A DNA stretch of 47,730 nucleotides, from NCBI GenBank assembly GCA_900319375.1, contig ONOI01000006.1, positions 1-47,730 of the forward strand. Direction: 5' to 3'. The translations under genes and the position numbers were made by a program. How positions within the stretch are numbered: position 1 is the first letter of the stretch; each line of letters opens with the position of its first letter. Shown here piece by piece: positions 7,388-24,919 of the stretch. This DNA is from an uncultured Bacteroidales bacterium. GTDB taxonomy: Bacteria; Bacteroidota; Bacteroidia; Bacteroidales; UBA932. Below the pieces are notes generated by a model. That model saw only the letters and a list, made by a program, of their open reading frames with translations, was not told the origin of the DNA and did no database searches.

Positions 7388-7389
7388 AA

Positions 7390-9969
7390 TCAGTTTATTT
7401 CTACGCTGAAATCTCCCCTTGTGTCGCTCTGGGATATCCAGGCCGAAAGGACTTTTGTCTCTCCCGGGAATAAAGTTACGAAATTATCGTCCCAAAACAC
7501 AGGCCCAGCGGGTGTTCCGCCGCTAAGAAGCACTATTTCGTTAAAGAAACTCAGGGTCTGGGAGTCGTTCTTAAGGGTAAGCTCGAGCCTGTAGCCGTCG
7601 CCTTCTTCGCGAAGGACCTTGACCTTAGGGTGAAGATCCACCTTGGGAAGAGTGGTCAGCCAGTAGTAGTTCTGGTGCTGGGTGTAGTACCAGTAGAAGT
7701 TTTCGGAAACGACGGCGCCCGATGCATCCTCCAGACTCATCCTGACAAGGGCTACAGCGGTGATGTCCTTCAGGTAGGGGATAGCCTCGAGTTCGGTAAA
7801 GGTCTGGGCAGGGGCATCGAGCGTGCGCTCCATGCTCCAGTGCTCCTTCATGTCGTTGCCCCAGACGCTGACCTTTGCTTTCAGGCCGCTGAGGGCAGTC
7901 GGAGTCGTGTTGATAATGCTGATCATCCGGGTATCGGCATTCATCTGAATATGGACTGGCTCAAGGGCCTTCTTTGCGAAGTAGTATGCCGCCGTCGGAG
8001 TTAGCGACCAGTCATAGAACTGCCAGCAGACGTCGGGCCAGCAGGAATTGAGTTTCCAGAGCATCACGCCGGTGGTTATATCCCACATACGGTGGTTGGC
8101 AGCTTCGAACATTGCCCTGTAGCCTTCGGCGCTGACCATCTGTCCTTTGCGTACGTAGTCGCGGGCGGAGACAGGGTCGCTGTAGAGGGTGCGAATAGCA
8201 TTGTCGTAGGCGCGGTAGCAGAAATTGTTGGCATCCCAGGCGCCATGCTCGGCCCAGTGGCTGTCGAGAGGGAAGAGCGGGTCGCGCGGATCGAAAGGCT
8301 TGTTTAAGCTAGGGATAAACTGTTCCAGGCTTCTGTAGACGGGCATCGAGGGCATCCCAAGTTCGTTTCGGAACATCTGCAGGTGCACCTCGTTCACCTT
8401 GCGGAAATAGTAATCGGACGGGGCCCAGTTGTAGTCTGGAGCACCGTCGTCGGTAGTGCCGACCGGGAGGTCTTCGAGTATCCAGGGGGTGAGTTTCTCC
8501 ACATCCCAGGAGGTAGCCGTGGTGGGGAAGAAGGGTCTTGTGGGGTCGAGCTCCTTGCAGGCCTGTTTGGTCGCAACGTAGAGATCTTCGTCTACCATCA
8601 CCTCATTGACGCCGAACCACGCGATAATGGATGGGTGATTACGATAACGAAGGATGATATCGCGTACGCACTGTGCGGCCAGCTCATGGTCGTCGGGATT
8701 GTGGGCATTGGCCCTGCCGGGGTACATGCGGTAGCACTGGTGGAAGACGTGCCAGCTCATCAGGCCGGCCTCGTCCCAACTGTCGAGCCAGGCGGGATCG
8801 GGCGCTGGCATATCCTCGCTGCCTACGAGGTTGACTCCCGCTTCTTTGAGTAGCCGCGCCTGGTCGTAGATATTCTTGTCGGTATTACGGAGCATGGCAT
8901 CAGGCTGAAGCCAGCCGCCGCGGGCAAAAATCTTCACCCCGTTGACGGTAAACACGCGGCCTTTTTCGCCGTCTTTGTCCATCAGATAGGAGCCGACTTC
9001 GCGGATGCCGAACGGGGTCGAGACCGTGTCGGAAATCTTCCTCGATCCTATAGAAAAGCTAAGTTCAAGTCTGTAGAGATGCTGCTCTCCATAGCCGTTA
9101 GGCCACCACAGAAGGGGATTTTCGACAGTATATGGCAGAAACGCGACTATGCGGCTCTCGCCGGGGGCGAGCGTGACGGATTTGGAGAGGGTCAGGGTCT
9201 TGCCGCTTTCGGGAATGATACGGGCAGTCAGAGTGCCTTTCACCCTGGCGTTGCTATGGTTGGAGAGTGTGCTTTCCACATGGAGTATCGCCTTGTCGGA
9301 GGAGGGAACTTCGCTGCGGACGAACGGGTCTTCGAGGGTTACCTCGCCGGAGGCGCTGAGCCATACATCCTGCCAGATGCCCATATTGCGGTCGCGCACC
9401 ACGGGAGCGCAGTCCCAGCCGCCGCTCATCTTCATGGTCTCGTCGCGGAAAAGTCCGTCGCCGGAATTGCCGCGGTTGGGGCGGAAAAGATCCCACTGAT
9501 GGCCCGGAGTGGGTGTGCCGGGGTGATCGGTCTGATAGACCGTGATTTCGAGCTCGTTGGGGTCGGAACGCTTCAGGGCCGGAGTGATGTCGAAACGGAA
9601 GCGGCGGAACATCCCGACTACCTGCTCGCGAGTGGCGATTAGAACGCCGTTAAGGCTTATGTCCGCCCTGTAGTTGATTCCGTCGAGATGAAGCCAGATA
9701 TGCGATGCTGCGGCCATCTCGGCAGGAAGAGAGAATGAGGTCCTGAACTGATACGGATCGCGGAAGGGACTGCCCGGCTCGCTGACATCGGGGATCGTGA
9801 AGTTGTTCATCCCGATCCACGGGTCGGGATAGACGCCTTTGTCTACGAGTGCAGAAAGCACCGTGGTAGGCACGGTCACTTCGGTCCACTGCGTATCGAC
9901 TGCGGTCGAGCTTTTCATCTGCCATTGGGTAAGTCCAAGGCTTGCGAAGAGTATCAGCAGAAGTTTCAT
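7390..9969 (-). CDS. GH2 family exo-glycosidase, exo-glucosaminidase/beta-mannosidase type
   Basis: An 859-residue secreted protein with a short hydrophobic N-terminus. The opening VPTTVLSALVDKGVYPDPW...GMNNF is the sugar-binding domain start seen in the GH2 clade of exo-beta-D-glucosaminidases and mannosylglycoprotein endo-beta-mannosidases. Order: jelly-roll domain (about 25-205), Ig-like domain (210-325), barrel (330-640) and C-terminal beta domains. The acid/base is E456 in WFGVNE; the probable nucleophile is E536 in FRNELGMPSMP. The substrate could be GlcN- or Man-linked; the neighbouring GH20 and SIS genes lean towards amino sugar (inference). The ATG overlaps the stop of the SIS gene as ATGA, indicating coupled translation. 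Confidence 0.9.
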   Translation of the reverse strand: MKLLLILFASLGLTQWQMKSSTAVDTQWTEVTVPTTVLSALVDKGVYPDPWIGMNNFTIPDVSEPGSPFRDPYQFRTSFSLPAEMAAASHIWLHLDGINYRADISLNGVLIATREQVVGMFRRFRFDITPALKRSDPNELEITVYQTDHPGTPTPGHQWDLFRPNRGNSGDGLFRDETMKMSGGWDCAPVVRDRNMGIWQDVWLSASGEVTLEDPFVRSEVPSSDKAILHVESTLSNHSNARVKGTLTARIIPESGKTLTLSKSVTLAPGESRIVAFLPYTVENPLLWWPNGYGEQHLYRLELSFSIGSRKISDTVSTPFGIREVGSYLMDKDGEKGRVFTVNGVKIFARGGWLQPDAMLRNTDKNIYDQARLLKEAGVNLVGSEDMPAPDPAWLDSWDEAGLMSWHVFHQCYRMYPGRANAHNPDDHELAAQCVRDIILRYRNHPSIIAWFGVNEVMVDEDLYVATKQACKELDPTRPFFPTTATSWDVEKLTPWILEDLPVGTTDDGAPDYNWAPSDYYFRKVNEVHLQMFRNELGMPSMPVYRSLEQFIPSLNKPFDPRDPLFPLDSHWAEHGAWDANNFCYRAYDNAIRTLYSDPVSARDYVRKGQMVSAEGYRAMFEAANHRMWDITTGVMLWKLNSCWPDVCWQFYDWSLTPTAAYYFAKKALEPVHIQMNADTRMISIINTTPTALSGLKAKVSVWGNDMKEHWSMERTLDAPAQTFTELEAIPYLKDITAVALVRMSLEDASGAVVSENFYWYYTQHQNYYWLTTLPKVDLHPKVKVLREEGDGYRLELTLKNDSQTLSFFNEIVLLSGGTPAGPVFWDDNFVTLFPGETKVLSAWISQSDTRGDFSVEIN

Positions 9970-10982
9970 TCGGAAAGTGTTACTTTGCCTCCGTGGGAGA
10001 AGTCACCGGGGACTATTCCTCTTCTGGAGGCGAGTTCTACGATAAGAAGCTGGAGAGGAAGTACGGCAAGGACTGGGAACAGTTCGGGAGCGCATGGTTC
10101 AGTCTCCAAAACCTCGATTCCGGCGAAAGCCCCGGGGTGGGGATTGCGGTCCGTGACGAGCAGGACATTGCCTCCATAGCGGAGGACGTCGTCAACGAGC
10201 CTCAAAGACTGGGCGCGGGTGGGGGACTGGGAGTGGGAAATTATTACCACCGTCATGCCTGGAGCAACCATCTCCAGCGGGCCATGGCGGAAGTCTCCGC
10301 CGGTAAGCGCAGAGGAACTCAGATGAAGGGCTTCGTTACACATCAGCGCCGATTGTCTTGCCACCTGAAAATCGATACCACGGGCTGTGAACTGGATAAA
10401 CGATGCGTCTCCCACCAGATCGGCCGCAAGATTGACCTGTTCGCGGCGGTTCAGGGTCTTCTCGACGGCTTCTGCAAGCCAGTCAGGGTCCCATTTGGTC
10501 TTGATGCCGCAGATAGAGTCGGCAAGTGCAAGAGCGGCCATCCACGAGGTGATGAAGGTCTTGGTAGAAGTCATCTCCTCCTTTCCGGCTTTGGTCTGAA
10601 TGACCGTTCCGGCCATCGAAGCCAGGCTGCTCTGCGGCTCATTTGTGATAGCCACGACTCTCTCCTTGGGAAGGGATAGTTCGCGCAGGAGCTGCACGGT
10701 CTCGTAGCTCTCTCCCGACTGGGAAATCGCGACGAGAAGGGTGTCTTCGACGAGTACCTTCTGACCGTAGTGGAGCAGTTCTCCGGCATTCTCACAGAAC
10801 GCGGGAACGCCCCGTCCCTCGAGAACGAGAGAAAAGGCGCCCGCTACGAAGTATGAACTGCCCATGCCTGTGGCGACAATGCGGGAATACCCTCCGGCAG
10901 GCATCGAAGCCTGCCGGAGGTACTCCGCAGTGTCCCGGACGGCGCCGGGCTGTTCGAGGATTTCCTTCAGAAAGGGTATCAT
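9966..10982 (-). CDS. SIS-domain sugar isomerase/deaminase (GlmS-isomerase-like)
   Basis: A cytosolic 338-residue protein with two SIS domains and no glutaminase domain, so it resembles the isomerase half of GlmS and the AgaS/FrlB/GlmD group. Phosphosugar-binding motifs are TGMGSSYF (38-45) and SQSGES (87-92), followed by STKTFITS and, in the second domain, NEALHLSSSALTGGDFRHGP. Such enzymes deaminate or isomerise hexosamine-6-phosphates or related sugar phosphates. Being inside an operon of secreted glycosidases, it most likely handles the amino sugar released by GH20/GH2 after import and phosphorylation; no kinase for this step is visible here. Start is 1 bp after the stop of the lipoprotein gene upstream and its stop overlaps the GH2 start. 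Confidence 0.88.
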   Translation of the reverse strand: MIPFLKEILEQPGAVRDTAEYLRQASMPAGGYSRIVATGMGSSYFVAGAFSLVLEGRGVPAFCENAGELLHYGQKVLVEDTLLVAISQSGESYETVQLLRELSLPKERVVAITNEPQSSLASMAGTVIQTKAGKEEMTSTKTFITSWMAALALADSICGIKTKWDPDWLAEAVEKTLNRREQVNLAADLVGDASFIQFTARGIDFQVARQSALMCNEALHLSSSALTGGDFRHGPLEMVAPGMTVVIISHSQSPTRAQSLRLVDDVLRYGGNVLLVTDRNPHPGAFAGIEVLETEPCAPELFPVLAVLPLQLLIVELASRRGIVPGDFSHGGKVTLSE

Positions 10983-10983
10983 C

Positions 10984-12597
10984 CTAGTCGTTGAAGGTGA
11001 TTTCGTAAGCGATGAGGCCGATATTCATGGCGAAGCCGTAGACCTGGATCTTGTTGGTTCCGCTGGTGGCAAACACCACATCGCCGATCTGATTCTGGTT
11101 GGCGGCGATGGCGTTGGGGCCGAGGACGGTTCCCTCATAGGCGTGAGGAGACATCATGCCCTGTGCACCGTAGCCCATACCCTCAATGATGCCTTCTTCG
11201 TTGGCAGAACTGCGAGAAGCGAAGATGAGACCGTCAGTAAGGGATGTTGTGGTAGGTGTTGCTCCAATTTCGCTGACAACGAGCTGATAGTAGAACTGAT
11301 TGTTGCTGTATTCATCGGTCTTTCCGGTGTACCAGCCGTTGAGCACGCCGAAGAGTTTATGCCCAGCAAAGTCGATGTAATCACCTGCGATGGCGTTGCG
11401 CTGATAGGTACCGCCGCCCATATACCAGTAACTGCCCAGATCGAAGAGGGTTGTGCCGTTGTGGGTGATATACTGACGGAAGTTGCCAGATACGCTGATG
11501 TAGTCGATTGCATCGCCAGTCTTGCCGGTTCCGGCTGTAGGGACGACAGCTGATGAATACCACAGCGATCCTTCGTAGAGGTTGGTCTTGGGATAGGTGG
11601 CATCCGGCTTGCCTCCAGTGTAGGTCACGAACGCTGCCACACCCTGTGATGGAGCGGTGGTGGCTGCAACTGCATCTGCACTGAGGTCACCCGCGATCTT
11701 GAGATTGCTGAAAGCGTAGGTGTTGCTTGCCCAGTGCCACATTCCAGCCCAAAGGGAAGCCTTGGGCTTGCTGCTGATGCCATCGTACCACACGAGGTCG
11801 CGCACATCACCATTGGCGCCGGATCCTTCGCGGTTGTCGACATAGTAGAATGCTGCGAGATGTCCTGCATCATCGGAAGCGATAGCCCAGATAGGCAGAT
11901 TGGCCACGCCTTCGGTGTTGACGAGGTTGTTGCCGAGGTACTCGCCTGTGAAGCGGTTGTAGACCGGCATTTCGGAGGAGTTGGCAGCATTGGAGAGGAT
12001 GAGATAGTCTCCTACGACTGCGATAGTGCGGTGTGCGTCCCTGACCATTCCGTGGGGATTCTCGACTGTAGGCTGGAAGCCGAAGAGAGGTTTTACCGTG
12101 ATGGGAGGAAGCGGTTCGCTGTCCTTCGGAAGAGTGATCTTGGTGCCGTCGGCAAATACGAGAGTCACCGTGTCGCCGTTGTCGATGAAGTCGACAAGGT
12201 ATGAGTCTCCGCCGGTGCCGTCGGCTCCGTCCTTGCCATCCTTACCGGGAGCTCCGTCTTGACCGTCTTTGCCGTCTTTGCCGGGAGCGCCGTCCTTTCC
12301 GTCGGCGCCGTCTTCACCGTAGTAGATCTCAATGGGATCCATGTTGGTAAAGTAAATCGTGTAGCCGATGATGTTGCCTTCGGTGTCCTTGATGGGCTGA
12401 TAGTCGGTGATCGACTCGTTGGCAGAAGCCGCTTCAGCGAGTTTCTTCACGGCATCGACCTGATTCTGAAGGTCCTTGACCTGCTCCTGAAGGGTAGTTA
12501 CATCCTTCTTCAGGGCGTTGAACTCCTCCGTGAGATCGGGAGCGCAACCTGCAATCATCAGGCAGAGCGCTGCGATGGGAATAAATAACTTTTTCAT
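10984..12597 (-). CDS. Surface lipoprotein: coiled coil, collagen-like repeat, propeller-like domain
   Basis: A 537-residue lipoprotein (C18 in MIAGC). Residues about 22-58 are a heptad-rich coiled coil; about 60-93 and 131-155 match the DUF4988-like module found at the start of many Bacteroidales surface lipoproteins. Residues 94-130 are about twelve Gly-X-Y triplets, mostly GKD, GAP and GAD, like bacterial collagen. From about residue 168 (KPLFGFQPTVENPHG) to the end it is clearly paralogous to the C-terminal domain of the next gene upstream, with matching blocks such as YLILSN and FTGEYL; the repeated short strands suggest a propeller (inference). Placed after SusD, it probably binds glycan at the cell surface. 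The coiled coil and collagen-like part would favour trimers on a stalk. Confidence 0.8.
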   Translation of the reverse strand: MKKLFIPIAALCLMIAGCAPDLTEEFNALKKDVTTLQEQVKDLQNQVDAVKKLAEAASANESITDYQPIKDTEGNIIGYTIYFTNMDPIEIYYGEDGADGKDGAPGKDGKDGQDGAPGKDGKDGADGTGGDSYLVDFIDNGDTVTLVFADGTKITLPKDSEPLPPITVKPLFGFQPTVENPHGMVRDAHRTIAVVGDYLILSNAANSSEMPVYNRFTGEYLGNNLVNTEGVANLPIWAIASDDAGHLAAFYYVDNREGSGANGDVRDLVWYDGISSKPKASLWAGMWHWASNTYAFSNLKIAGDLSADAVAATTAPSQGVAAFVTYTGGKPDATYPKTNLYEGSLWYSSAVVPTAGTGKTGDAIDYISVSGNFRQYITHNGTTLFDLGSYWYMGGGTYQRNAIAGDYIDFAGHKLFGVLNGWYTGKTDEYSNNQFYYQLVVSEIGATPTTTSLTDGLIFASRSSANEEGIIEGMGYGAQGMMSPHAYEGTVLGPNAIAANQNQIGDVVFATSGTNKIQVYGFAMNIGLIAYEITFND

Positions 12598-12619
12598 TTT
12601 GGTATGTGTTAGTGTGTGA

Positions 12620-14536
12620 TTAAAGTGCGAGTGAAGTCAGATTCCAGCCGACCAGTCCCTGATCGGTGGAGAGGAAATAGAGTTGGACTGACATGCCGTC
12701 GTTGCCGCGGGCAAATACCACGTCGGTCGTCTGGTCGGTGTTGCCCTTGAGGACGGTTGCGCCTGACTCGTAGGCATGAGGCGAGATCATCGCAGTGGGG
12801 ATCACTCCGTTGGAGCCTTCGAAGTTGCTGGTATTGCCGTCGATGCCGCCTTCGCGGGTGTCGAAGATGAATCCGCCCGTGAACGAGCTTGTCGCAGGGA
12901 ATGCGCCCACGTCGGAAACGAAGCAGCGCCAGTACATCTGGAGGACGTCATCGACGCTCTTCTGGGCGTAGGTTCCGTTCATCACGGCAAGCAGGTGGGC
13001 GCCGTTGAATTCGATGTAGTCCATTGAGCCTACGGGGTGCTGGTAGTCGTAGCCTCCGGTGTATTTCCACCAGTGTGAGTCGGGAAGGTCGAAGCACACG
13101 CCCTGGCTTCCTTCATCGTTGCCCTTGGCGTAGATAAATGTCGACCTGAAGGTGGCGGAGGTCCAGAAGTACTCAAGCGCACTGGGATCGCTGGTGATAG
13201 GTTTGACCTTGCAGGCGTTCCAGAACGACGCTGCCGTGCCGGGAAGTCCGGAGGGCCACTGGACGAAGGCCGGCCACTGCGGGCTGCCGTTCTTGAAGCG
13301 CACGAACACCGGCCTTACGTGGGACTTGGACATGGTGGCGATAATTGCATCGCCGCTGGTAAGGTCGCCGCAGACGGTGACAGTCCTGAAGAAGTCGAAA
13401 TCCTTGGTGCCGCCGAAGCCGTAAGGAGCGTTGAGCCAGCCGGAACCTGCAACAGCAGCCTCCATAATTAGGGTAGGCTTGTTCTCTATGCCGTCCTTCC
13501 ACAGATAGCCGTAGACGGTCTGGTTGTCTGTCGTGTGGTGGAGCACAGGCAGTTTGTCAGCCGCATAGGTGCTGACATAGGTCACGGCGAACAGATGTCC
13601 GGCATCGTCCGAGGTGATGGCGTGGATCTCGGCATTGGAGACTATTCCTTCGGTATTGACCGTCACGTCGGGCAGATATTCCCCGGTGAAGCGGTCATAC
13701 ACAGGCATCTTGCTGAAATCTACAGAATTGGACAGGATCAGGTAATTGCCGATCACTGCCATCGTCCTGTTGCCGCCCTGGGTGAATCCGCGCGGATCGC
13801 TGACGGTAGGCTGCCAGCCGAAGAGGGCCTTGACCTGGCCTACGCCATAGTCGACAGTCTTGGGAGTCTCGAATGCAATAGCATAGGTATTGCGGACCTT
13901 TTCGCTCTGAGAGACGACAGTGATGTCCTTGCCCTGGGTGATATCTATCGTACCGTCGGCATTTTTGGCCTCACTCTCGAAAGTCGCCCAAGGCGAAATC
14001 GAAAGCTGGGCTTTCTGCAGATCGGGAGTGTTTTCGGGGGTAATCAGCACGCTGAACGTACCCTTGCCGCCGTCTACAGGCTGCCGCACGGCGTTTACTA
14101 TCTGCGCTGAAACCAAGCCGTTCAAGACTGCGGCGTCGGACTTGCGGTAATCTGCGCTGATTCTCATGTCGATCTTTTTGCCGTTGGCATAGATGAGGGT
14201 AGTGGCGATTCCTTCTGCAAGGTTGTGGATTCCGGCAATTGACGGATTGAACTTAGCTCCCTTGGGGAGTGTCGCCGTTACTTTCATCTGGGTGAGATCG
14301 CCTTGGACAGGGTTGGTGTCGCTCAGGTAATAAGGGACCTGGATGACGGCGGTTCCGGCTTCCAGATCTATCACAGACTCATACTCCGTGTTGAGATCCG
14401 TAATGAGCATTCCCTTGATCACGAGGCCCTGGATGTTCTCGCTGTCCTCGAAGGAAAAGTCGGGGTGCTCAGGCTGCACGCAGGCCTGCAGGAGTGCAAG
14501 CGCTGCGACACTGATATATAACAAAGTCTTTTTCAT
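12620..14536 (-). CDS. DUF5018-like surface lipoprotein, putative glycan-binding protein
   Basis: A 638-residue lipoprotein (C19 in LLQAC). Residues about 25-215 contain two beta-sandwich-like stretches typical of DUF5018-type proteins (for example DLEAGTAVIQVPYYLSDTNPVQGDLTQ is split over 60-90). From about residue 235 (KALFGWQPTVSDPRG) the rest matches the C-terminal domain of the gene downstream. The gene sits directly after SusD (14 bp gap), the usual place of SusE/SusF-type surface glycan-binding proteins, which supports that role. No catalytic motif is seen. The two paralogues differ in their N-terminal parts, which suggests one binding domain presented on two different scaffolds. Confidence 0.8.
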   Translation of the reverse strand: MKKTLLYISVAALALLQACVQPEHPDFSFEDSENIQGLVIKGMLITDLNTEYESVIDLEAGTAVIQVPYYLSDTNPVQGDLTQMKVTATLPKGAKFNPSIAGIHNLAEGIATTLIYANGKKIDMRISADYRKSDAAVLNGLVSAQIVNAVRQPVDGGKGTFSVLITPENTPDLQKAQLSISPWATFESEAKNADGTIDITQGKDITVVSQSEKVRNTYAIAFETPKTVDYGVGQVKALFGWQPTVSDPRGFTQGGNRTMAVIGNYLILSNSVDFSKMPVYDRFTGEYLPDVTVNTEGIVSNAEIHAITSDDAGHLFAVTYVSTYAADKLPVLHHTTDNQTVYGYLWKDGIENKPTLIMEAAVAGSGWLNAPYGFGGTKDFDFFRTVTVCGDLTSGDAIIATMSKSHVRPVFVRFKNGSPQWPAFVQWPSGLPGTAASFWNACKVKPITSDPSALEYFWTSATFRSTFIYAKGNDEGSQGVCFDLPDSHWWKYTGGYDYQHPVGSMDYIEFNGAHLLAVMNGTYAQKSVDDVLQMYWRCFVSDVGAFPATSSFTGGFIFDTREGGIDGNTSNFEGSNGVIPTAMISPHAYESGATVLKGNTDQTTDVVFARGNDGMSVQLYFLSTDQGLVGWNLTSLAL

Positions 14537-14550: not shown

Positions 14551-16236
14551 TTACAGCCATGCGTCGTTTTGGACGCAGAGCCTGTTGTTCTGGAGTTCCG
14601 AATAGGGAATGGGGAAGATGTTGTACTTCGCGGGGAACTGGCGGTCCTGGGTGTCGGCCTCGATCCTCTCGTAGCTGAAGTTGCCGTAGATGTCCGGGGT
14701 GATCTTCACGCCGTGGACACGGGTGCCGTTGAGCACTTCCTGAGCCTTTCCCCAGCGTATAAGGTCGAAATAGCGGTGACCTTCCAGGCCAAGCTCGCAT
14801 ACCCTCTCCTTTGAGAGATCTTCGAGGTAGGCATTCCAGTTGCCGCGGCGCGGAAGGGGATCCATGCCGACCCTGGAGCGGATTTCATTGAGGTCTTTGT
14901 AGGCCCCAACAAAATCGTTGAGCCTTGCGGCGGCCTCGCTGCGTATGAGATAGATCTCCGCAAGCCTCATCTCAATCCAGGTCTGGCCGCTGAGGATGCT
15001 GGTATAGTTCATCCCGGCTGCATCGCTCAGGTACTTGCGGAAGATATAGCCCGTAGTAGAGCGGTGGTCATTGTCCTGGCCGGTGGTCTTGAAGGTCATG
15101 AAACCGTCGGTTCCTCCGTCATAAAGCTGGAGGGTGCGGCCGCGCCATGTCGCGCCATTGTAGAGGATCGAAGCATAGAAGCGGGGATCGCGGTTGTCGA
15201 AAGGCTTATTGCCATAGGCCGCGAGGTTGTCCCAGTCGAACTTCTGCCAGGTGCTGCCGACCTTGATGTCGAAGAATCCGGCATACTCGTCGGTTGGAGT
15301 AGCTGCGGCGCCGACAGACACATTGAAGGCAGCTCCGTCGCCCGGAGGGCAGAAGTAGCTGTTGAAGTTGTGTTGGCGGGCAGCCGCGCTTCCGCTGCTC
15401 TCCTTGAAGTAGACGGGAAGGATGATCTCCGTGTTGAACGGATTGGAGAAGATCGAGTTGTAGGCCGAGCCCGCTACGAGCGAATATGTTCCGGAGGTGA
15501 TAACCGAGTCGGCAGCATCGTAGGCCTCCTGCCAGCGGCCGGCGTAAAGGGCCGCGCGGGCTTTCATGCCGAGGGCGGCGCCTTTGGTGGCACGGCCGGC
15601 GTCGTCCCCAGTCCAGCTTGCCGGAAGTACGGCGGCAGCCTTGTCGTATTCGCCGAGGATGAAATCCCAGCATTCTTCTTCGCTGGAACGGGCTTTCGCC
15701 TTCTCTTTGGGGCCATCGACGGCGTCTTCGCGTGTGCGGAGGATCACTCCGCCATGGCGAAGGACAAGTTCCTGATAGGCGAATGCACGGAGGAAACGGC
15801 ATTCGGCCACACGGATGGCAAGGGCTTCTTTATTGAGCCTGTCGGCATAGCCGTAGTGGATATCGAAGAAGAGTTCGTTGATCTGACGGATGTAGGAGTA
15901 CATCGACGACCAATTGGAACGGAAGTTGCCCTCGGGCGTGAGAATAGAAGCCGGACTGTAGAAGAACTGATTGACAGTTCCGCCGTTTACGCCCCACCAG
16001 GAGTATTTCACGAGGTCGGTCACACCGTCGTCGAATATGTAGCCGTTTGCTATATCGGCATTGGCGTATAGGACGCCGTAGAAACTCTTGACGAAAAGGT
16101 CGAGATTGGCATCGGATGCGTAGACGACATCTTCGTTGTAGTAGCTCACGGGGCTGAGGTCTATATTCTTCTCGGCGCAGGAAACCGTGAGAGCAAGTGC
16201 GGCAGTAACCGCCATTATGTAGTTGTGTGCTTTCAT
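14551..16236 (-). CDS. susD: SusD/RagB family glycan-binding lipoprotein
   Basis: A 561-residue outer-membrane lipoprotein that closes over its SusC partner as the lid of the importer and helps capture glycan. The ATG at 16236 is chosen because it gives a proper lipoprotein signal (C20 in ALTVSC) and follows the SusC stop by 13 bp; an upstream in-frame ATG would overlap SusC. SusD features include the helical N-terminal repeats (QINELFFDIHYG, ECRFLRAFAYQELVLRHGGV), the SusD-like middle, and the C-terminal EIYLIRSEAAARLN...YKDLNEIRSRVGMDPLP and KERVCELGLEGHRYFDLIRWG blocks. Operon position right after SusC is canonical. Confidence 0.97.
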   Translation of the reverse strand: MKAHNYIMAVTAALALTVSCAEKNIDLSPVSYYNEDVVYASDANLDLFVKSFYGVLYANADIANGYIFDDGVTDLVKYSWWGVNGGTVNQFFYSPASILTPEGNFRSNWSSMYSYIRQINELFFDIHYGYADRLNKEALAIRVAECRFLRAFAYQELVLRHGGVILRTREDAVDGPKEKAKARSSEEECWDFILGEYDKAAAVLPASWTGDDAGRATKGAALGMKARAALYAGRWQEAYDAADSVITSGTYSLVAGSAYNSIFSNPFNTEIILPVYFKESSGSAAARQHNFNSYFCPPGDGAAFNVSVGAAATPTDEYAGFFDIKVGSTWQKFDWDNLAAYGNKPFDNRDPRFYASILYNGATWRGRTLQLYDGGTDGFMTFKTTGQDNDHRSTTGYIFRKYLSDAAGMNYTSILSGQTWIEMRLAEIYLIRSEAAARLNDFVGAYKDLNEIRSRVGMDPLPRRGNWNAYLEDLSKERVCELGLEGHRYFDLIRWGKAQEVLNGTRVHGVKITPDIYGNFSYERIEADTQDRQFPAKYNIFPIPYSELQNNRLCVQNDAWL

Positions 16237-16249
16237 CTTTGCCGTGAGT

Positions 16250-19200
16250 TTAGAAATTGACATCAATACCGAACGTGACGGTGCGCTGCTGGGGATAGTA
16301 GCCTGTCACCACGTTGGGACTTTCCGGATCGAGATACTTGAATTGGGTGAAGGTCAGCAGATTGGTCCCGCTCACGAATGCACGGATGCTTTCCATGCCG
16401 ACCACGCGGGTCCAGCTGCGGGGAAGCGTGTAGCCCAGACTGACGTTCTTTAGGCGGAGATATGCTCCGTTGCGCTTCCAGAAGTCGGATACCCGGTAGT
16501 TGTTGCGGTAGGAGCTGGCGTTTGCCGAAAGCCTGGGATATGTGGCGTCGGTGTTGTCAGGTCTCCAGGACTGCTCTACGAGGTAGAGCGGTGCGTTGTC
16601 GTAGTTACCATACCAGGGCTTGGTAAGAGGGGTCGCGTCGTTGGTGCCGTTGGTCCATGCTCCGAGGAGCATCTTGTCGCAGAGGGCTCCGCCCTGGAAC
16701 TGCACGTTGAGATCGAATCCTTTCCAGGTCGCGTCGAACTGAAGCGCATACATGAGTTCGGGCCTTGGATTGCGTGCTATCCATACGTAGTCGTCGCCGT
16801 CGATGCGGCCGTCGCCGTTCTGGTCGACATACTTGATGTCTCCGATCTTGGGTTCTACACCGGCGGGGGCGTTGTCAACCTCTTCCTGGCTCTGATAGAG
16901 TCCGTCGGACTCAAGTCCGAGGATGGAGCCCCATGGCGTTCCGATCATGTCCTGCCAGGGAAGGATATTGTCGGCCTGACGGTGCCTGATGACGCGGTTG
17001 TGGGCCCAAGAGATGTTGCCGTTAACCCTGTAGACAAGGTCGCCGACCTTATTGGAGTGATTGAGAGAGAGTTCGAAGCCACGGTTGTCGAAGATACCCG
17101 AATTCTCGTACGTGGGGTAGTGACCGCCAAGAGAGGGAGGGAATGCCGCGGTAATGGGGTCGAGGATGTCGTAGGTATACTTGTAGAACCAGTCGAATTC
17201 GACTCCGAGAAGGCCCTTCCACGCACCGAACTCGACTCCGAGATCGTAGGTGCGGATGTGCTCCCAGGTAAGGTCGAAGTTGGGGTAAGAGGTCAGGTTG
17301 TACATAGTCGCCTGGGGGATGCGCCCGAGGGCGGTGCCGTTGGCATTGAGGTAGAAGTTCTTCCTATACTGGTAGGGCACGACGTTGTCATTTCCGACTT
17401 CGCCCACCGAGGCCCTTAGTTTCAGAAGGTCGACCTGGGGGAGTGCATCCCTGAGGAAATCTTCCTTGGAGATGACCCATCCGGCAGACACGGCGGGGAA
17501 GAAGCCCCAGCGGTGGCCCTTGCCGAACTTGTAGGATCCGTCGTAGCGGCCGAGAATCTCAACCAGGTAGCGGTCGTCGTAGGCGTAGTTGAACCTTCCG
17601 ATAAAACTCGAATAACCGGTGTACTCGCGGCCGGAACTGTTTTTGGCCGTCGATGCGTCGGCAAAAATCAGTTCGTCGATATCGAGCAGAGAAAACTTCT
17701 GGGCTGAGGTGCTGAAGTTCTTGCCGAAATAGGAGGTCTGCTCGTAGAGGAAGAGCCCGGAGACTTCGTGTTTGCCGAACTTGCGGTTGTAGGAGATTTC
17801 CGGCCTGAGGATGGTATTGTGCGACTTCTGGTCGCCCATATAGAGGTTGCCGTCTGCAAGGGCGTGTGAGCACTCCTTGAGTTCGTAAGTGCGGTCTATG
17901 AAATTCCATGCCATCAGCTTATAAGCGTACGCGAAGGTCTTCGAATCGAGATCCCTCCAGTCGTAGCTGTACTGAAGCGCAAGCTTGAGCCCCTGAAGGA
18001 AAGGCAGGCTGTACTCAACCCTTGCAGTAGTCTCTATCTTCGCTGTTTGGGACATGCTGTAGCCGGAGTGCTGCGCGGCATATTCGGCATTGCCGACCCA
18101 GGCGCCGGACGTACGCATGGCCGAGGTCGCCATCCCGTAGTAGGGAGAGGTCGGATCGACATCGTAGGTCTTCGGGACGAAGGGCAGGGCGAACATGAGA
18201 GCCCAGGGAGTAGTACCGCCCACGGTTGCGTTGGCATAGGTAAGGTTGCCGGGCTGATTGTAGTCCTGGTACATCACTCCGAGGTTAAGGCTGATCTTGA
18301 GATTGTCGTTGGGCCTTGCGTCGATGTTGGTGCGGAAGTTGGTCCTCTTGTTGTAGTGGCCTTCCATGAAGCCTCGCTGGTCCTGGAATCCGCCGGAGAA
18401 GAAGTAGTTGACTTTCTTGCTGCCGCCGCTTACCGACACGTTGTGCTGGTGAGTGAGGGTAGTGCGCAGCATAGGCTCGACCCAGTTGGTGTTCTCTATA
18501 CCGTCGGAAGTGTCACCGTTGGTTGTCGCGGCAATCTCCGCGTCGGTGAAAAACGGCACAGTGTCCTCAAGAGGTATGCCGGTGACCCACTGATCGAGCT
18601 GATAACCGAGATTGTAGTACTTCATGTACTGGTCGCCGGTCATCATCTGCGGAAGGGCGGTGGCATGGTTGACGAGGAGCCTGCCCGTGTACTGGACGCT
18701 GGCCGAACCTTCGTCGCCCCTCTTTGTGGTGATGAGGATGACGCCGTTGGCGCCCCTCATACCATAGATGGCGGCAGAAGCGTCCTTAAGTACGGAGATC
18801 GACTCGATGTCGGCTGGGTTGACTTGGTTCATGTCGCGCTCAACTCCGTCGACGAGCACAAGCACGGTACCCGCGTCGTTGTAGGATGAGTAACCGCGTA
18901 CGAGGATCGAGACCTGGTCGGATCCTGGCTGACCCAGCGACTGCTGGGTGATGATGCCGGGGAGTTTACCGACAAGAGACTGCGATACGTTGGTAGCCGT
19001 GGCCTTTTTGAGTTCCGTGCCGGATACGGCGGCTACCGATCCGGTCACATGGATTTTTTTCTGGGCTCCGTAACCCACGACCACCACCTCGTCGAGGTAG
19101 GTTGTGTCGTCGCGGAGTTCCACATCCAGCTTTGTGCGGCTTCCCACCCTGTATTCCATCTGCTCCATGCCCATGCTGATAAAGACCAGAGTGCTGGAAG

Positions 19201-19417
19201 GCAGCGCTGTGATGGAGTACTTTCCGGATTCGTCGGTACTGGTACCGGTGTTGGTGCCCTTGATCATTACGACAGCTCCGGGGATCGGATTGCCGGCTCC
19301 GTCCGTGACGACGCCGGTAACAGTCTGCTGGGCATGCGCGGCAAAAGCTCCTGCAAACAAGAGCATAGCCACCAGCAGCGTCCTAATTGTTGTAACGTGT
19401 GGCAATGGATTGCTCAT
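16250..19417 (-). CDS. susC: SusC/RagA TonB-linked outer-membrane glycan importer
   Basis: A complete 1055-residue SusC: signal peptide ending AHA (residue about 29), carboxypeptidase-like regulatory domain (30-115; VTGVVTDGAGNPIPGAVVMIKG), the TonB-box-like DEVVVVGYG (about 108-117), plug domain with VLVLVDGVERDMNQVNPADIESISVLKDASAAIYG split over 185-220, and a 22-strand barrel to the C-terminal aromatic residue. It imports large oligosaccharides through the outer membrane with SusD. It heads the operon that runs to about 2010. The promoter -7 box TACCTTTG lies at 19445-19452 and a shared operator-like motif at 19485-19507. Confidence 0.98.
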   Translation of the reverse strand: MSNPLPHVTTIRTLLVAMLLFAGAFAAHAQQTVTGVVTDGAGNPIPGAVVMIKGTNTGTSTDESGKYSITALPSSTLVFISMGMEQMEYRVGSRTKLDVELRDDTTYLDEVVVVGYGAQKKIHVTGSVAAVSGTELKKATATNVSQSLVGKLPGIITQQSLGQPGSDQVSILVRGYSSYNDAGTVLVLVDGVERDMNQVNPADIESISVLKDASAAIYGMRGANGVILITTKRGDEGSASVQYTGRLLVNHATALPQMMTGDQYMKYYNLGYQLDQWVTGIPLEDTVPFFTDAEIAATTNGDTSDGIENTNWVEPMLRTTLTHQHNVSVSGGSKKVNYFFSGGFQDQRGFMEGHYNKRTNFRTNIDARPNDNLKISLNLGVMYQDYNQPGNLTYANATVGGTTPWALMFALPFVPKTYDVDPTSPYYGMATSAMRTSGAWVGNAEYAAQHSGYSMSQTAKIETTARVEYSLPFLQGLKLALQYSYDWRDLDSKTFAYAYKLMAWNFIDRTYELKECSHALADGNLYMGDQKSHNTILRPEISYNRKFGKHEVSGLFLYEQTSYFGKNFSTSAQKFSLLDIDELIFADASTAKNSSGREYTGYSSFIGRFNYAYDDRYLVEILGRYDGSYKFGKGHRWGFFPAVSAGWVISKEDFLRDALPQVDLLKLRASVGEVGNDNVVPYQYRKNFYLNANGTALGRIPQATMYNLTSYPNFDLTWEHIRTYDLGVEFGAWKGLLGVEFDWFYKYTYDILDPITAAFPPSLGGHYPTYENSGIFDNRGFELSLNHSNKVGDLVYRVNGNISWAHNRVIRHRQADNILPWQDMIGTPWGSILGLESDGLYQSQEEVDNAPAGVEPKIGDIKYVDQNGDGRIDGDDYVWIARNPRPELMYALQFDATWKGFDLNVQFQGGALCDKMLLGAWTNGTNDATPLTKPWYGNYDNAPLYLVEQSWRPDNTDATYPRLSANASSYRNNYRVSDFWKRNGAYLRLKNVSLGYTLPRSWTRVVGMESIRAFVSGTNLLTFTQFKYLDPESPNVVTGYYPQQRTVTFGIDVNF

Positions 19418-19444: not shown

Positions 19445-19452
19445 CAAAGGTA
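19445..19452 (-). promoter_or_regulatory. -7 promoter box of the SusC operon
   Basis: On the minus strand TACCTTTG matches the Bacteroidota TAnnTTTG element. It gives a leader of roughly 20 bases before the SusC ATG. No TTTG is present at the -33 distance, which fits a promoter that needs an activator bound upstream. Confidence 0.7.
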
Positions 19453-19484
19453 TGATGATTGATTTATTCTTTTTGCGTAATTAC

Positions 19485-19507
19485 CGAAAAATTATCCTCA
19501 AATAGCG
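19485..19507 (-). promoter_or_regulatory. Putative operator shared with the hexuronate operon (copy 1)
   Basis: Minus-strand CGCTATTTGAGGA (19495-19507) followed by TTTCG (19485-19489). The 13-mer is identical to 24415-24427 and both copies end 42 bp upstream of a TAnnTTTG box; 19 of 23 positions match over the full stretch. It starts 5 bp after the stop codon of the XylR-type regulator gene. An activator site of that regulator is the simplest reading; this is inference. Confidence 0.7.
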
Positions 19508-19512
19508 AAGTG

Positions 19513-20649
19513 TCAGTGTTTGCGGTATTCCTGCGGGGAGATACCGTGGTATTTTCTGAAGGTCCGGGCGATATTGTCTGTGTCCCTGAAGCCGCATTCG
19601 AGGGCTATCTCCTTGAGCGGCAGGTCTATCGAGACGAGCATACGTGTGAATTTCTCGACACGGAGATTCTGAAGGTACTGCCAGATGGAGGTGCCCATCG
19701 CCTTGCGGAAACGGGTTTCGATGCTGCGGCGCGAGAGCGGATAAGGTTCGAGTATCTCGGCCATAGTGAGATCGCGGGTGAAATTGTCGTCGAGAAAATT
19801 CACCACTTTTTCGATAATCGGATCGGCGATAAGGTGGCGCTTGGTCGAACTGCGCTCGACCACGCAGATAGGGCGTATAGTGACGGTAAAAGGCTTCCAG
19901 TTTCCTTTGGACTGGGTGTCCAGCAGGCGGCATATCATCCTTCCGCCTTTTTCCACATCGAGGGCGATCGATGAAATGGGCGGATCGGAGATCTCGCACA
20001 GAAGGTCGTCGTTGTCGACTCCGAGAAGCTGGAGGTCTTCTGGGATGCGTATCCCCTCGACCTTGCAGATTTCGGACACGGCAAGGGCATGGGCATCGTC
20101 GCAGGCGAAGAGCGCTACAGGTTTAGGGAGCCCCACCAGCCACGAGGCGATCATGGAGGTATTGTCGAGCGATTCGGTCTCGAGCACGCGGGTGGAATAC
20201 CCTGCCTGTGAGACCGTCTTCTCGAAGCCTTGCCGGCGCTCCTCAGACCATACGACTCCGCTGAGCCCGAAATAGGCGAAATTCTTGGCTCCTCTGCCTA
20301 TAAAAAAAGATGCGGCCATGCTTCCTGTACCGATGTAGTCGCCGGTAATCACGGAATAGGCCGAACTCCTGCTGTGGTAGTTCTGGAGCACCACCGGGAT
20401 GCCGAGCGATGAGAGCTGCGGCTCTTTTGTGGGATTCCACAGGCCGATGATGGCATCTGCCTTCCAGTTTCGGGCCCGCTCGAGGATTCTTTTTTCGCCT
20501 TCAGGGTCCCAGATAGTCCATGGCGGCATGCGGTAGAACTGCCATGGGCCGTTGTCGTTGGAGTATTCGACGATCCCGCGAAGAAGTTTGCGGTCAAACT
20601 CGCTCGCGCTGTCGATCAGCAGTATGACTTTCTTTTTGGCCTGCGGCAT
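19513..20649 (-). CDS. XylR-type transcriptional regulator (LacI-like sensor + AraC domain)
   Basis: A 378-residue DNA-binding regulator. The start is the ATG at 20649, one base after the eda stop; longer in-frame starts would overlap eda. Residues about 5-265 form a LacI/periplasmic-binding-protein sensor (VILLIDSASEFDRKLLRGI; FACDDAHALAVSEIC; LQLLGVDNDDLLCE), without an N-terminal LacI helix-turn-helix. Residues about 275-378 are an AraC-type double helix-turn-helix (RRSIETRFRKAMGTSIWQYL and the closing signature LKEIALECGFRDTDNIARTFRKYHGISPQEYR is spread over 340-376). This is the architecture of E. coli XylR. It probably senses a sugar or sugar acid of the pathway encoded by its own operon and activates both that operon and the SusC operon through the shared motif. 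Confidence 0.93.
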   Translation of the reverse strand: MPQAKKKVILLIDSASEFDRKLLRGIVEYSNDNGPWQFYRMPPWTIWDPEGEKRILERARNWKADAIIGLWNPTKEPQLSSLGIPVVLQNYHSRSSAYSVITGDYIGTGSMAASFFIGRGAKNFAYFGLSGVVWSEERRQGFEKTVSQAGYSTRVLETESLDNTSMIASWLVGLPKPVALFACDDAHALAVSEICKVEGIRIPEDLQLLGVDNDDLLCEISDPPISSIALDVEKGGRMICRLLDTQSKGNWKPFTVTIRPICVVERSSTKRHLIADPIIEKVVNFLDDNFTRDLTMAEILEPYPLSRRSIETRFRKAMGTSIWQYLQNLRVEKFTRMLVSIDLPLKEIALECGFRDTDNIARTFRKYHGISPQEYRKH

Positions 20650-20650
20650 A

Positions 20651-21322
20651 TTATTTATGGTATAAAGCGAACCATTTGAGGCTCGAAGAGCATAGCTGGG
20701 CGATACTGTCCCACTCGCCAGCGGCAATGGCATCCTTCGGGAAAAGCTTTGAACCCATCCCGAGTGCGGCTGCGCCGGCAGCAGCCCAGGCCCGGACGTT
20801 CTCCTCGCTCGGCTCGACCGAGCCCGTACACATGAGCTTCACCCCGGGGAGCGGGGCGAGCACGTCGCGAACGAACGCCGGGCCTCCGACGCTGCCGGCG
20901 GGGAAGACCTTGACAATCTCGCTGCCGGAGCGGACTGCATTATAAATCTCAGTAACAGTTCCACAGCCGGGTATATAGGGTATATCATGGGCTACGGCAA
21001 CCGCCTGCGCCTCAGTGACCATGCAGGGCGAGACGAGAAAATCTGCGCCTGCTGCGGCAAAAGCCTCCGCGGCTTCCTTGCTGAGTATGGTGCCCGCGCC
21101 AAAGGCCATGCCGGGGCATTCTTCCCTCACGAACGGGATTATCTCGCGGAAAACCAGCAGGGCATTTTCTGAGCGGTCCGTGAATTCAAAAGCGCGGACT
21201 CCGCCCCGGTAGCAGGCCCTGATCGCAAGGCGGGCTGTCTGCGGGTCAGGGTTGAAAAATACCGGCACGACAGGGGCGCTGAGTATGAGGTCTATAGTTT
21301 CTGTTTTGGTAAATGCTGCCAT
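20651..21322 (-). CDS. eda: 2-keto-3-deoxy-6-phosphogluconate (KDPG/KHG) aldolase
   Basis: A 223-residue class I aldolase that splits KDPG into pyruvate and glyceraldehyde-3-phosphate, the last step of hexuronate breakdown. The catalytic Glu is E46 in AFEFTDR and the Schiff-base lysine is K138 in IVKVFPAG, with GAGTILS (74-80) and the C-terminal phosphate-binding MCTGSVEPS present. Length is normal. The gene follows kdgK by 8 bp and precedes the regulator by 1 bp. Confidence 0.96.
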   Translation of the reverse strand: MAAFTKTETIDLILSAPVVPVFFNPDPQTARLAIRACYRGGVRAFEFTDRSENALLVFREIIPFVREECPGMAFGAGTILSKEAAEAFAAAGADFLVSPCMVTEAQAVAVAHDIPYIPGCGTVTEIYNAVRSGSEIVKVFPAGSVGGPAFVRDVLAPLPGVKLMCTGSVEPSEENVRAWAAAGAAALGMGSKLFPKDAIAAGEWDSIAQLCSSSLKWFALYHK

Positions 21323-21330
21323 GGTCCAAT

Positions 21331-22371
21331 CTATCTGCTTACTCGCCCTGAGGCGTTGCCGTTAATGAGATTCTCAACCTCGGAGGTGCTTACGCGGTTG
21401 TAGTCGCCCGGGATCGAGTGCTTGAGGCAGGATGCGGCAGCGGCGAATTCGAGGGCGCGCTGATTGCCAGAGCCTGCGAGCAGGCTGCAGATCAGCCCGC
21501 CCATGAACGCATCGCCGCTGCCCACCCGATCGACTATGTCGGTTATGTCGTAGCGGCGGCTTTCGAAAAGAGTTTGCCCGTCGAAGAGTATGCCTCCCCA
21601 GGTGTTGTGGTCGGCACTGATCGAGCCGCGAAGGGTGAGAGCCACCTTGCGGCAGCGGGGGAAGCGCTGCATCAGCTGGCGGCATACGCTCCCGAAGCGG
21701 GCCGCATCAGGGCTGCCGCCGCATTTCTCGGCATCAAAACCGCCTTCTGGCACTATCCCGAAGACCATCTGGGCATCTTCTTCATTGCCCATGATGAGGT
21801 CGCAGTACGAAACGAGTTCAGGCATTACTTCCGATGCTGCCTTACCGTATTTCCAGAGTTTTTTCCTGTAATTCAGGTCGCACGAGACGGTAATTCCCAT
21901 CTCCGAAGCGGTTTTGACGGCTTCCAGACAGGCATCGGCCGCTCCCTGACTCACCGCCGGGGTTATTCCGCTCCAGTGCAGCCACTTCGCGCCCTCAAGC
22001 ACTTTCCGCCAAGGGATCATCCCGGGCCGAATCTCCGAGAAGGCTGAATGTGCACGGTCATAGACGACCTTGCTCCCGCGGGCTCCGGAGCCGCTTTCGA
22101 GGTAATATATGCCCATCCTCTCGCCTCCGCGGACAATCGAAGATGTGTCTACTCCAAGCCCTTTGAGTTCGCTGATGCACCTGTCGGCAATGTCGTTTTC
22201 GGGCAGCCTGCTGACAAAAGCAGCCTCCAGGCCGAAACCGGCAAGGCTGACGGCAACATTTGCCTCTCCTCCGCCGAAGCACACATCTAAATGCGGCGCC
22301 TGAGTAAAGCGCGTCTTCCCGGGAGTTGAGAGACGGAGCATTATCTCTCCAAAAGTAACCACTTTATTCAT
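21331..22371 (-). CDS. kdgK: 2-keto-3-deoxygluconate kinase (PfkB family)
   Basis: A 346-residue PfkB-fold sugar kinase. The N-terminal [11 protein letters not shown] and [17 protein letters not shown] (about 31-47) and the C-terminal signature [12 protein letters not shown] (281-292, catalytic D287) are intact. In this context it phosphorylates 2-keto-3-deoxy-D-gluconate made by UxuA to give KDPG for Eda. The start ATG overlaps the uxuA stop by 8 bp. The specific substrate is inferred from the operon. Confidence 0.93.
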
Positions 22372-23536
22372 AATCGTTTATCAGAGCGGCCTCGATACCG
22401 CGGAGCTCCGCCAGCGAACGGAGCCTGCCGTAGCATGAGTAGCCGGGGTTTGACTTTCTTCCAAGGTCGTCACACATCTGGTGACCGTGATCGGGCCTGA
22501 GGAAAATGCGGAATTTGCGCCTGTGCTCCACCTCCAGAAGGGCTTTCATCATCTCCACTACGGGCACATCGCCTTCGAGAAGGTTCGCCTCGTAGAAATC
22601 GCCCTCCGGGCTGCGCTTTGTCGAGCGAAGGTGGACGAAGTCGATGCGTTCGCCGAACTCGCGCATCATGGCGGGAAGGTCGTTGTCAGCCCTGACTCCG
22701 AGAGAGCCCGTGCAGAGGTTGAGCCCGTTGGCGGGGCTTGGAACAGCCGCAACAAGTTTACGGAAGTCTTCGGCCGTAGACATGATGCGCGGAAGCCCGA
22801 GAATAGGGTAGGGAGGATCGTCCGGGTGGATGACCATACGCGCTCCGACCTCCTCGCAGACGGGGCAGATTTGCCTTAAAAAAAAGATAAGATTGGAGCG
22901 CAAATCTTCTTCTGTTATAGTATCATAGCGTTTAAGTGCCTCGCGGAACTTCTCGAGGGTGAAGCTCTCCTCGCTGCCCGGAAGCCCGGCTATCATATTG
23001 CGCGTGAGTTTCTGCTTGTCTTCAGGGCTCATCGCCTCGAATCTCCTGCGCGCTTTTTCGGTCTCTTCCGCCGTATACTGGGCAGCGGCGCCGGAACGCT
23101 CGAGGATGAAGAGATCGAAGGCCATGAAGGCATCCCGCTCGAAACGCAGGGCAAGGCTGCCGTCCGGCATCGGATAAGCGAGATCGGTGCGGGTCCAGTC
23201 GAGTACGGGCATGAAATTGTAGGTGATGCACATGATGCCCTCAGCCGCAAGGTTCCGGATGGTCTGCTTGTAGTTCTCGATGTACCGGAGGTAGTCGCCC
23301 TCGCGGGTCTTGATGTGCTCATGGACGGGCACGCTCTCGACCACGCTCCACTCCAGGCCTGCTGCTCTGCATTCAGCCTGACGGATGCGTATCTGTTCGC
23401 GGGTCCACACCTCGCCGTTCGGTATGTGGTGCAGCGCCGTGACTATGTCGGTGACTCCGGCCTGGCGTATGTACTGGAGCGGTACGGGATCCTGCGGACC
23501 GTACCAGCGCCAGCTCTGTCTCATCGGATATCTCAT
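22364..23536 (-). CDS. uxuA: Mannonate dehydratase
   Basis: A 390-residue metal-dependent TIM-barrel enzyme that dehydrates D-mannonate to 2-keto-3-deoxy-D-gluconate. Family motifs include the start [16 protein letters not shown], the [11 protein letters not shown] loop, [21 protein letters not shown] and RPDHGHQM, which carry the metal-binding His/Cys/Asp residues. Length is typical. Start overlaps the upstream SDR stop as ATGA. Confidence 0.97.
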
Positions 23537-24357
23537 ATACTGAATGCGTTGAATCCTCCGTCGACGACACTTATTGTGCCCGTGACGCCCCTGGAGGCAT
23601 CGGAGGCAAGGTAGTGGAGGGTGCCGGTGAGCTCGTCTGGCTGGAGGAAACGGCCAAACGGGGTATGGGCGATTATTTTGTGGGACCTGTCGGTAAGCGA
23701 GCCGTCAGGATTGGTCAGCAGCGTCCTGTTCTGGTTTGTGAGCAGAAAGCCCGGAGCTATGGCATTGACCCTCAGGCCATCACCGTATTTGGTGGCAAGC
23801 TCGCCCGCAAGCCACTCCGTCCAGCTCGCTATCCCGGCTTTGGCTATACCATAGCCGGCGACGCGGGTGAGCGGGCGCAGCGAAGTCATCGAGCAGAAAT
23901 TGATGATGGAGCCCTTTCGGGTTTCGATCATAGGCTTGGAAAACACCTTGGTCGGGATCACCGTCCCAAAGATATTGAGTTCGCATACTTTCTTCATAGC
24001 CTCGATGTCCAGATCTGCCATGCTCTGGTCGGGGCGGACGTTGGCTTTGTCCATATTGCCACCTGCGGCATTGAGCAGGATATCAACCCTGCCGTACCGG
24101 TCCAGGATGGTCTCAAGATTCGCCTCGAGAACATTCTCGTCTAGCACGTCGGTAGGCAGGAAAATCGCTTCGCCGCCCTCCGACTCGATCTCCTTTGAAA
24201 TCTCCCTGCCTTTCTGCGCCGCGCGCTCCAGATCGAGAAGTACCATCTTGCAGCCTTGCGCGGCAAAGTATTTGACTATGGTTTGCCCGAGTACACCGCA
24301 TGCACCCGTCATCACGGCCACTCGGCCGCTGATGTCGAATTGGTTATCAGTTTTCAT
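23533..24357 (-). CDS. SDR oxidoreductase, probable fructuronate reductase (mannonate oxidoreductase)
   Basis: A 274-residue short-chain dehydrogenase. The NAD(P)-binding TGACGVLGQ (17-25), NAAGG (96-100), and catalytic S156, Y169 and K173 (GYGIAK) are all present. In the uxuA operon it most likely interconverts D-fructuronate and D-mannonate, the job done by the SDR-type UxuB of Bacillus subtilis; a KduD-like role on unsaturated uronate products is the alternative. The ATG at 24357 is preferred over the one at 24390 because the -7 box lies between them, which leaves at most a few bases of leader. First gene of the hexuronate operon. Confidence 0.85.
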
Positions 24358-24364
24358 ATCATTA

Positions 24365-24372
24365 CAAATGTA
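24365..24372 (-). promoter_or_regulatory. -7 promoter box of the hexuronate operon
   Basis: Minus-strand TACATTTG fits TAnnTTTG and ends 7 bases before the ATG at 24357, so the mRNA would be leaderless or nearly so. No TTTG at the -33 distance. Confidence 0.65.
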
Positions 24373-24404
24373 ATTATTTTCCCCGTTCATTTAGCGACAC
24401 CCCG

Positions 24405-24427
24405 CGAAATTTAGTCCTCAAATAGCG
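24405..24427 (-). promoter_or_regulatory. Putative operator shared with the SusC operon (copy 2)
   Basis: Minus-strand CGCTATTTGAGGA (24415-24427) then TTTCG (24405-24409), the second copy of the motif at 19485-19507, at exactly the same 42-bp distance from its -7 box. Confidence 0.7.
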
Positions 24428-24621: not shown

Positions 24622-24628
24622 GCGAAGG

Positions 24629-24655: not shown

Positions 24656-24726
24656 GCGTCGCTTCGCTGACGCCTTCGCTTCCACGTTACCCCCCGGCGG
24701 CACGGCCACCGACCCCTCGGGGGTCT

Positions 24727-24914: not shown

Positions 24915-24919
24915 TTTTT

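Follow-up and report, generated by a model that had tools for sequence, protein, structure and literature searches.

The operator pair and its setting

The stretch analysed here, referred to as the window, comprises positions 1 to 47,730 (47,730 nucleotides) of contig ONOI01000006.1 from an uncultured Bacteroidales bacterium (assembly GCA_900319375.1, GTDB lineage UBA932). Its minus strand carries genes for an SDR oxidoreductase, UxuA, a PfkB-type kinase, a KDPG aldolase, a XylR-type regulator, SusC and SusD, in that order, followed on the same strand by those for DUF5018, DUF4988 and SIS-domain proteins and for glycoside hydrolases (GH) of families GH2 and GH20. A 13-mer, CGCTATTTGAGGA, lies at 19495-19507 on the minus strand, between the regulator and SusC genes, and again at 24415-24427 on the same strand, before the SDR gene. 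By its sequence, each copy is one half of a larger predicted element, a direct repeat of approximately CGCAAATTGAGGAT / CGCAAATT with a 21-bp period. The features concerned are listed below.

24407..24427, minus strand: operator 2, distal half-site CGCTATTTGAGGACTAAATTT
24390..24406, minus strand: operator 2, proximal half-site beginning CGCGGGGTGTCGCTA, degenerate
24365..24372, minus strand: -7 box TACATTTG of the hexuronate operon
23533..24357, minus strand: SDR D-mannonate oxidoreductase (NF006132), probable start 24357, frame listed from 24390
22364..23536, minus strand: UxuA mannonate dehydratase
21331..22371, minus strand: PfkB-family kinase, KDG kinase-like
20651..21322, minus strand: KDPG/KHG aldolase
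19513..20649, minus strand: XylR-type regulator, LacI-like sensor (Peripla_BP_3) plus AraC helix-turn-helix
19487..19507, minus strand: operator 1, distal half-site CGCTATTTGAGGATAATTTTT
19470..19486, minus strand: operator 1, proximal half-site beginning CGGTAATTACGCA, 21 bp past the first
19445..19452, minus strand: -7 box TACCTTTG of the SusC operon
16250..19417, minus strand: SusC/RagA outer-membrane transporter
14551..16266, minus strand: SusD-family lipoprotein
5921..14536, minus strand: remainder of the likely import/hydrolysis operon (DUF5018, DUF4988, SIS-domain protein, GH2, GH20), operon extent presumed

The exact 13-mer had only these two copies in the whole genome (1.91 Mb), with three more at one mismatch on other contigs. 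When up to three mismatches were allowed it was not enriched in the window (13 found against 13.2 expected), so the argument rests on the exact pair, its offset from the box and the relatives. Among 209 pairs of the window's 21 TAnnTTTG boxes, the operator pair stood out by sharing 13 consecutive identical bases at one offset, against 6 for the next-best box pair and 8 for the best of 20 mononucleotide shuffles.

A previous sequence-only reading of this DNA had placed the two 13-mers on the minus strand, each 42 bp from a TAnnTTTG box (19445-19452 and 24365-24372), and the coordinates, strand and distance are all correct; counted from the first base of the direct repeat, the box lies 55 bp on (13 + 42). 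Its statement that TTTCG follows at the same offset in both copies, with 19 of 23 positions matching, was borne out and can be refined, TTTCG being the edge of the second half-site. TAnnTTTG, the -7 element of the Bacteroidota primary promoter, is present at both copies, and TTTG is absent from the -33 place in both promoters, as that reading had also said; PMC7366714 gives TAnnTTTG / TTTG as the consensus of this promoter. The regulator stop codon was likewise confirmed to lie 5 bp from copy 1.

In the regulator protein, Pfam domains PF13377 and PF12833 were found at residues 143-297 and 333-405, and residues 28-404 align with PDB 4fe7 (1.3e-37), giving the domain order and full-length similarity of the XylR type. 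A start at M29 (20649), just past the aldolase stop codon, is likelier than one at the beginning of the longest frame (20733), because the match to Escherichia coli XylR begins at residue 28. E. coli XylR (PDB 4fe7 and 4fe4; Ni et al. 2013) has the same domain order along its whole length. The genome of the window encodes one full-length regulator of this type, the next match being at 6.5e-11. Since its neighbours are SusC/D, GH2, GH20 and hexuronate enzymes, the regulator is not named XylR proper.

Recurrence of the repeat beside related regulator genes

Regulator genes of this type were compared at 84 loci including the window; removal of 17 near-duplicates left 67, and a further 14 without a flanking non-coding stretch were set aside, leaving 53 non-redundant loci. 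CGC-N18-CGC adjoined 22 of the 53 (dinucleotide shuffles: mean 4.4, maximum 11, 300 sets), and for the remaining spacings between 3 and 39 the count of loci with such a CGC repeat was 0-9. The distance from the repeat start to TAnnTTTG was 55 bp in 22 loci, with no other single distance occurring in more than four; repeat and box together at 55 bp were found in 22 of the 53 loci, against a mean of 0.0 and a maximum of 1 in 300 sets of shuffles. Thirty chosen sites aligned without gaps as CGCAAATTGAGGATAnAATTA CGCAAATT, a free spacer and TAnnTTTG. Columns 56 and 60-62 of this alignment were invariant, and a TTTG 20 bp before the box was present in only three of the 30. The element is, by prediction, a tandem AraC-type operator, its two half-sites facing the same direction two helical turns apart.

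Among 37 selected sites, 23 followed the regulator gene on the same strand, 10 stood divergent from it, three preceded it and one was placed otherwise. The first gene behind the site was SusC-like in eight cases, GH2-like in three and the regulator itself in three, the remaining 23 being unmatched to window proteins. A Pfam scan covered 17 of these 23 (two of the 23 sites have no frame behind them) and also took in the gene that follows a third site of the L064 genome described below; the 18 genes comprised nine ROK kinases, four MFS proteins, one each of GH92, GH18, an oxidoreductase and a beta-helix protein, and one unrecognised. Operator distance tracked the distance between helix-turn-helix domains (n 37, r 0.52, Mantel p 0.0005), with r 0.00 for the spacer.

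Profile and model searches

A general profile was refitted on the best matches of the same loci, which inflates its own count of 38 of 53 loci over threshold; leave-one-out, held-out genomes and other families are fairer tests. With a profile of 35 sites from which the window and its close loci L063, L064 and L066 had been excluded, the two window sites ranked first and second (33.8 and 21.4), the next position scoring 6.4. In leave-one-out, p was ≤0.005 in 36 of the 53 loci and ≤0.05 in 40. Only the operator pair fell below E 0.1 in a model search of the window's own genome: the two sites stood at E 8.8e-8 and 3.3e-5 and the next at 0.134 (63-position profile), which disposes of the concern, raised with the sequence-only reading, that the motif might occur at many unrelated sites. 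The third candidate (C42, E 0.134) lies partly over the downstream flank of a tRNA-Leu gene, at no recognisable promoter, and was dropped as a chance match.

Of 398 genomes from the family, themselves a subset of a larger group, 105 (that of the window included) had a regulator match at E≤1e-40. The model was scanned against 40 regulator-bearing genomes, some of which had given model sites, and against 40 others as a held-out set. At E≤1e-3 a match was found in 30 of the 40 held-out regulator-bearing genomes (20 of 29 within the window's genus), in 26 of the 40 genomes of the set that includes model genomes, and in one of 30 same-genus genomes without the regulator, of which 20 had no regulator match at E≤1e-40 and 10 only weak ones (best 1.8e-11). 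At E≤0.1 the number among held-out genomes with the regulator was 38 of 40. Across the order, 393 genomes were sampled; a regulator match at E≤1e-25 was present in 17, and the window's genus accounted for two of these, its own genome included. Of 15 regulator loci from nine other families, six had a model match at E≤1e-4, five of them at full length. The expectation that the motif would be conserved in relatives held for L064 (both sites), G396 (copy 1) and much, though not all, of the regulator family. The pairing of the operators, their fixed geometry, their conservation and their tie to the regulator family are direct observations on the sequences.

Operators in two relatives

Locus L064, from a metagenome-assembled genome whose regulator is 97 % identical to that of the window, has the same 23-mer, CGCTATTTGAGGATAATTTTTCG, in both promoters, and the surroundings of the two promoters differ.

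The genome that holds this sequence (G286) has a further operator at L193:1522-1582, before a GH18 gene, and a second XylR-type gene with a site of its own.

In genome G396 (regulator 58 % and SusC 64 % identical), the gap between the regulator and SusC genes reads CGGTATTTGAATATAATTTTGCG, 32 bp, TAACTTTG, with spacings identical to those of the window. Its hexuronate genes are separated from the regulator gene, on another contig, where one further model match (E 8.0e-4) stands ahead of them. Behind that match are genes for an MFS transporter, an amidohydrolase-family and a glucosamine-isomerase-family protein, UxuA, an SDR protein and a kinase, the last three being 71, 70 and 66 % identical, respectively, to the window proteins. 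The two best half-site matches of a 10-kb stretch (11/14 and 13/14) fall there, 42 bp or two periods apart (L192:3015-3070), and dual or looped control of this operon is possible. The proposal of a single regulon of import plus uronate breakdown is supported, and gains from this site before the hexuronate genes, the arrangement of which differs from that in the window. The amino-sugar-type genes of G396 are in keeping with the window's GH20, GH2 and SIS genes, and a likely substrate is a glycan containing amino sugars and hexuronates.

Proposed mechanism

It is very probable, on the arrangement described, that both promoters are activated by a tandem-bound dimer of the XylR-type regulator encoded between the two sites, which would couple the import of glycan to hexuronate breakdown and control its own synthesis. 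The operator pair itself is well supported by the comparisons; for binding, activation, the ligand, operon extents and autoregulation we infer the following course. A sugar or sugar acid from the imported glycan would bind the LacI-like domain, and the AraC-type helix-turn-helix domains of the dimer would then occupy the two direct half-sites, with a 21-bp spacing and on the same face of the DNA. By analogy with XylR and AraC, the inner sugar signal would bring the dimer to occupy both half-sites. With the final base of the box placed near -7, these two would span approximately -69 to -53 and -48 to -32. The proximal one, 18-34 bp before the -7 box, would cover the place of the missing -33 element, so that bound regulator could contact RNA polymerase. 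Both promoters are probably activator-dependent, because of this geometry and the missing -33 TTTG. Bound regulator would switch on (a) SusC/SusD plus hydrolases and (b) the hexuronate operon SDR-uxuA-kinase-aldolase; as the regulator is the last gene of the hexuronate operon, operator 2 would also give self-activation.

Comparison with known regulators

At araI1-I2, E. coli AraC occupies two half-sites with a spacing of 21 bp, of which the proximal extends to the -35 region. The window system resembles it in this period and in the position of the proximal half-site by the -33/-35 region, and differs from it in sensor domain and promoter class. As described in PMC12125979, XylR-type sites are two direct repeats, in Vibrio XylRA also, and XylR and XylRA are activators. 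The 21-bp period agrees with this trait, the operator being assigned to the regulator by association. Compared with E. coli XylR, the predicted targets here are SusC/D import and hexuronate breakdown rather than xylose genes, the promoter is of the Bacteroidota TAnnTTTG type and the operator words are different.

Within Bacteroides, the AraC-type hybrid two-component systems (HTCS) have direct repeats averaging 21 bp apart and SusC/D operons as targets, and an HTCS dimer has been proposed to lie on one DNA face, according to PMC3878776. The window system, as proposed, would be like them in all three respects, but HTCS proteins have sensor, histidine kinase and receiver domains, whereas Pfam finds only a LacI-like sensor and an AraC domain in the window regulator. 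The uronate regulators KdgR, UxaR, UxuR and UxmR of Bacteroides thetaiotaomicron, all given as LacI family in the same source (PMC3878776), share with it the presumed control of a uronate pathway and a related sensor fold; in contrast, its DNA-binding part is AraC-type and its predicted site a direct repeat. The kind is known already from XylR and from the 21-bp repeats of Bacteroides HTCS. No description of this operator or regulon, nor any paper on XylR-type regulators or their operators in Bacteroidales, was found in the open-licence literature, a search that left subscription papers and RegPrecise outside.

Points against the proposed regulon and alternative explanations

Several results weigh against activation by this regulator at these sites. 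The first profile began from six sites chosen by eye, and without spacer and box operator 2 is weak (12.4, the next window position scoring 9.6 and operator 1 26.3). In leave-one-out, p exceeded 0.05 in 13 of the 53 loci, including those of the close regulators L068 (53 %) and L069 (49 %). No match at E≤1e-3 was found in 10 of the 40 held-out genomes, which may moreover be near kin of the model genomes, and none at E≤1 in six of the 15 loci from other families; conversely, nine of the 30 genomes without the regulator had some match at E≤0.1. The E-values of the sequence-only model are rough, its calibration having been short. The sensor part of the regulator correlates with operator distance nearly as well as the helix-turn-helix does (r 0.45), and the Mantel test leaves shared ancestry in. 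At the G396 hexuronate operon one half-site begins 34 bp ahead of the box start and the other 8 bp past it, in place of 55 and 34 bp ahead.

This last arrangement bears on the choice of activator over repressor mode, which we infer for the window. The same regulator might act at the same sites as a repressor, or as a repressor and activator with a loop between operators 4.9 kb apart. LacI-like sensors are common in repressors, and the G396 half-site past the -7 box is in a place typical of repression; on the other hand, activation fits both the 55-bp distance between repeat and box (22 of 53 loci) and the TTTG that is mostly missing at -33, and XylR and XylRA are themselves activators (PMC12125979). 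Repression, alone or combined with activation, is unlikely, although it is the strongest of the alternatives.

The sites could also be bound by another AraC-type regulator, for example an HTCS, with the XylR-type gene a mere neighbour. HTCS proteins too use direct repeats about 21 bp apart (PMC3878776), and the genome has other AraC-type helix-turn-helix matches, one at 2.1e-9. However, the sites track the XylR-type gene (30 of 40 genomes with it, one of 30 without), adjoin it in unrelated settings, and vary with the helix-turn-helix in the distance correlation, so that we regard this explanation as improbable.

If the conserved stretch were an RNA element or a terminator belonging to the 3' end of the gene before it, the 23 of 37 selected sites immediately past the regulator gene on the same strand would agree with this, but such an explanation is very hard to reconcile with the absence of an unusual RNA fold (z 0.47 and 0.30), with the 14 sites that are divergent, upstream or otherwise placed, and with copy 2, which is not beside the regulator gene. 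That the two promoters match through recent local duplication or by chance, without function, is equally implausible: the genome has only two copies, both in the cluster, but the independent profile finds both, L064 keeps both in differing surroundings and the pattern recurs in other families.

Wider meaning

Beyond the window, activation by the XylR-type regulator would be one case of something more general. The evidence leans, with less assurance than for the window itself, towards a widespread class of one-component, cytoplasmic, sugar-sensing XylR-type activators in Bacteroidales, which would use one rigid operator code (CGCAAATTGAGGAT-N7-CGCAAATT, with TAnnTTTG 55 bp from its start) to turn on the import of glycans and the breakdown of sugars jointly in response to an inner signal. 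Membrane HTCS, SusR and extracytoplasmic function (ECF) systems are the known routes beside such activators. If this is true, regulons and likely substrates could be read from genomes. Regulator, site and distance rule are readable together from sequence here, in Bacteroidales represented by assembled rumen and gut genomes. As the first genes behind the sites include those for SusC, GH2, GH92, GH18, ROK kinases and MFS proteins, the code might serve to attribute control to many glycan loci. Within the window, a single switch would govern both outer-membrane import and the cytoplasmic breakdown of hexuronates.

Other features of the window

UxaC (PF02614) was not found in the genome (94 % complete), though UxuA, SDR, kinase and aldolase are present. 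A search of a plasmid collection gave 0 matches, and a promoter and terminator scan of 24300-24950 gave nothing useful.

The most likely SDR start codon (24357) lies about 8 bases past the -7 box, so the message of this operon may have almost no leader; the equivalent ATG of L064 is about 35 bases past the box. Beyond the GH20 gene, window positions 677-5917 carry large genes on the same strand with few or no family matches, among them one of 487 amino acids with no match, one of 687 amino acids with only a match below cut-off and one of 614 amino acids with DUF6259. Between pheS and the hexuronate operon there are three inverted repeats (24526-24832), for example with 21-nt arms at 24526-24546/24609-24629 and 17-nt arms at 24757-24773/24783-24799.

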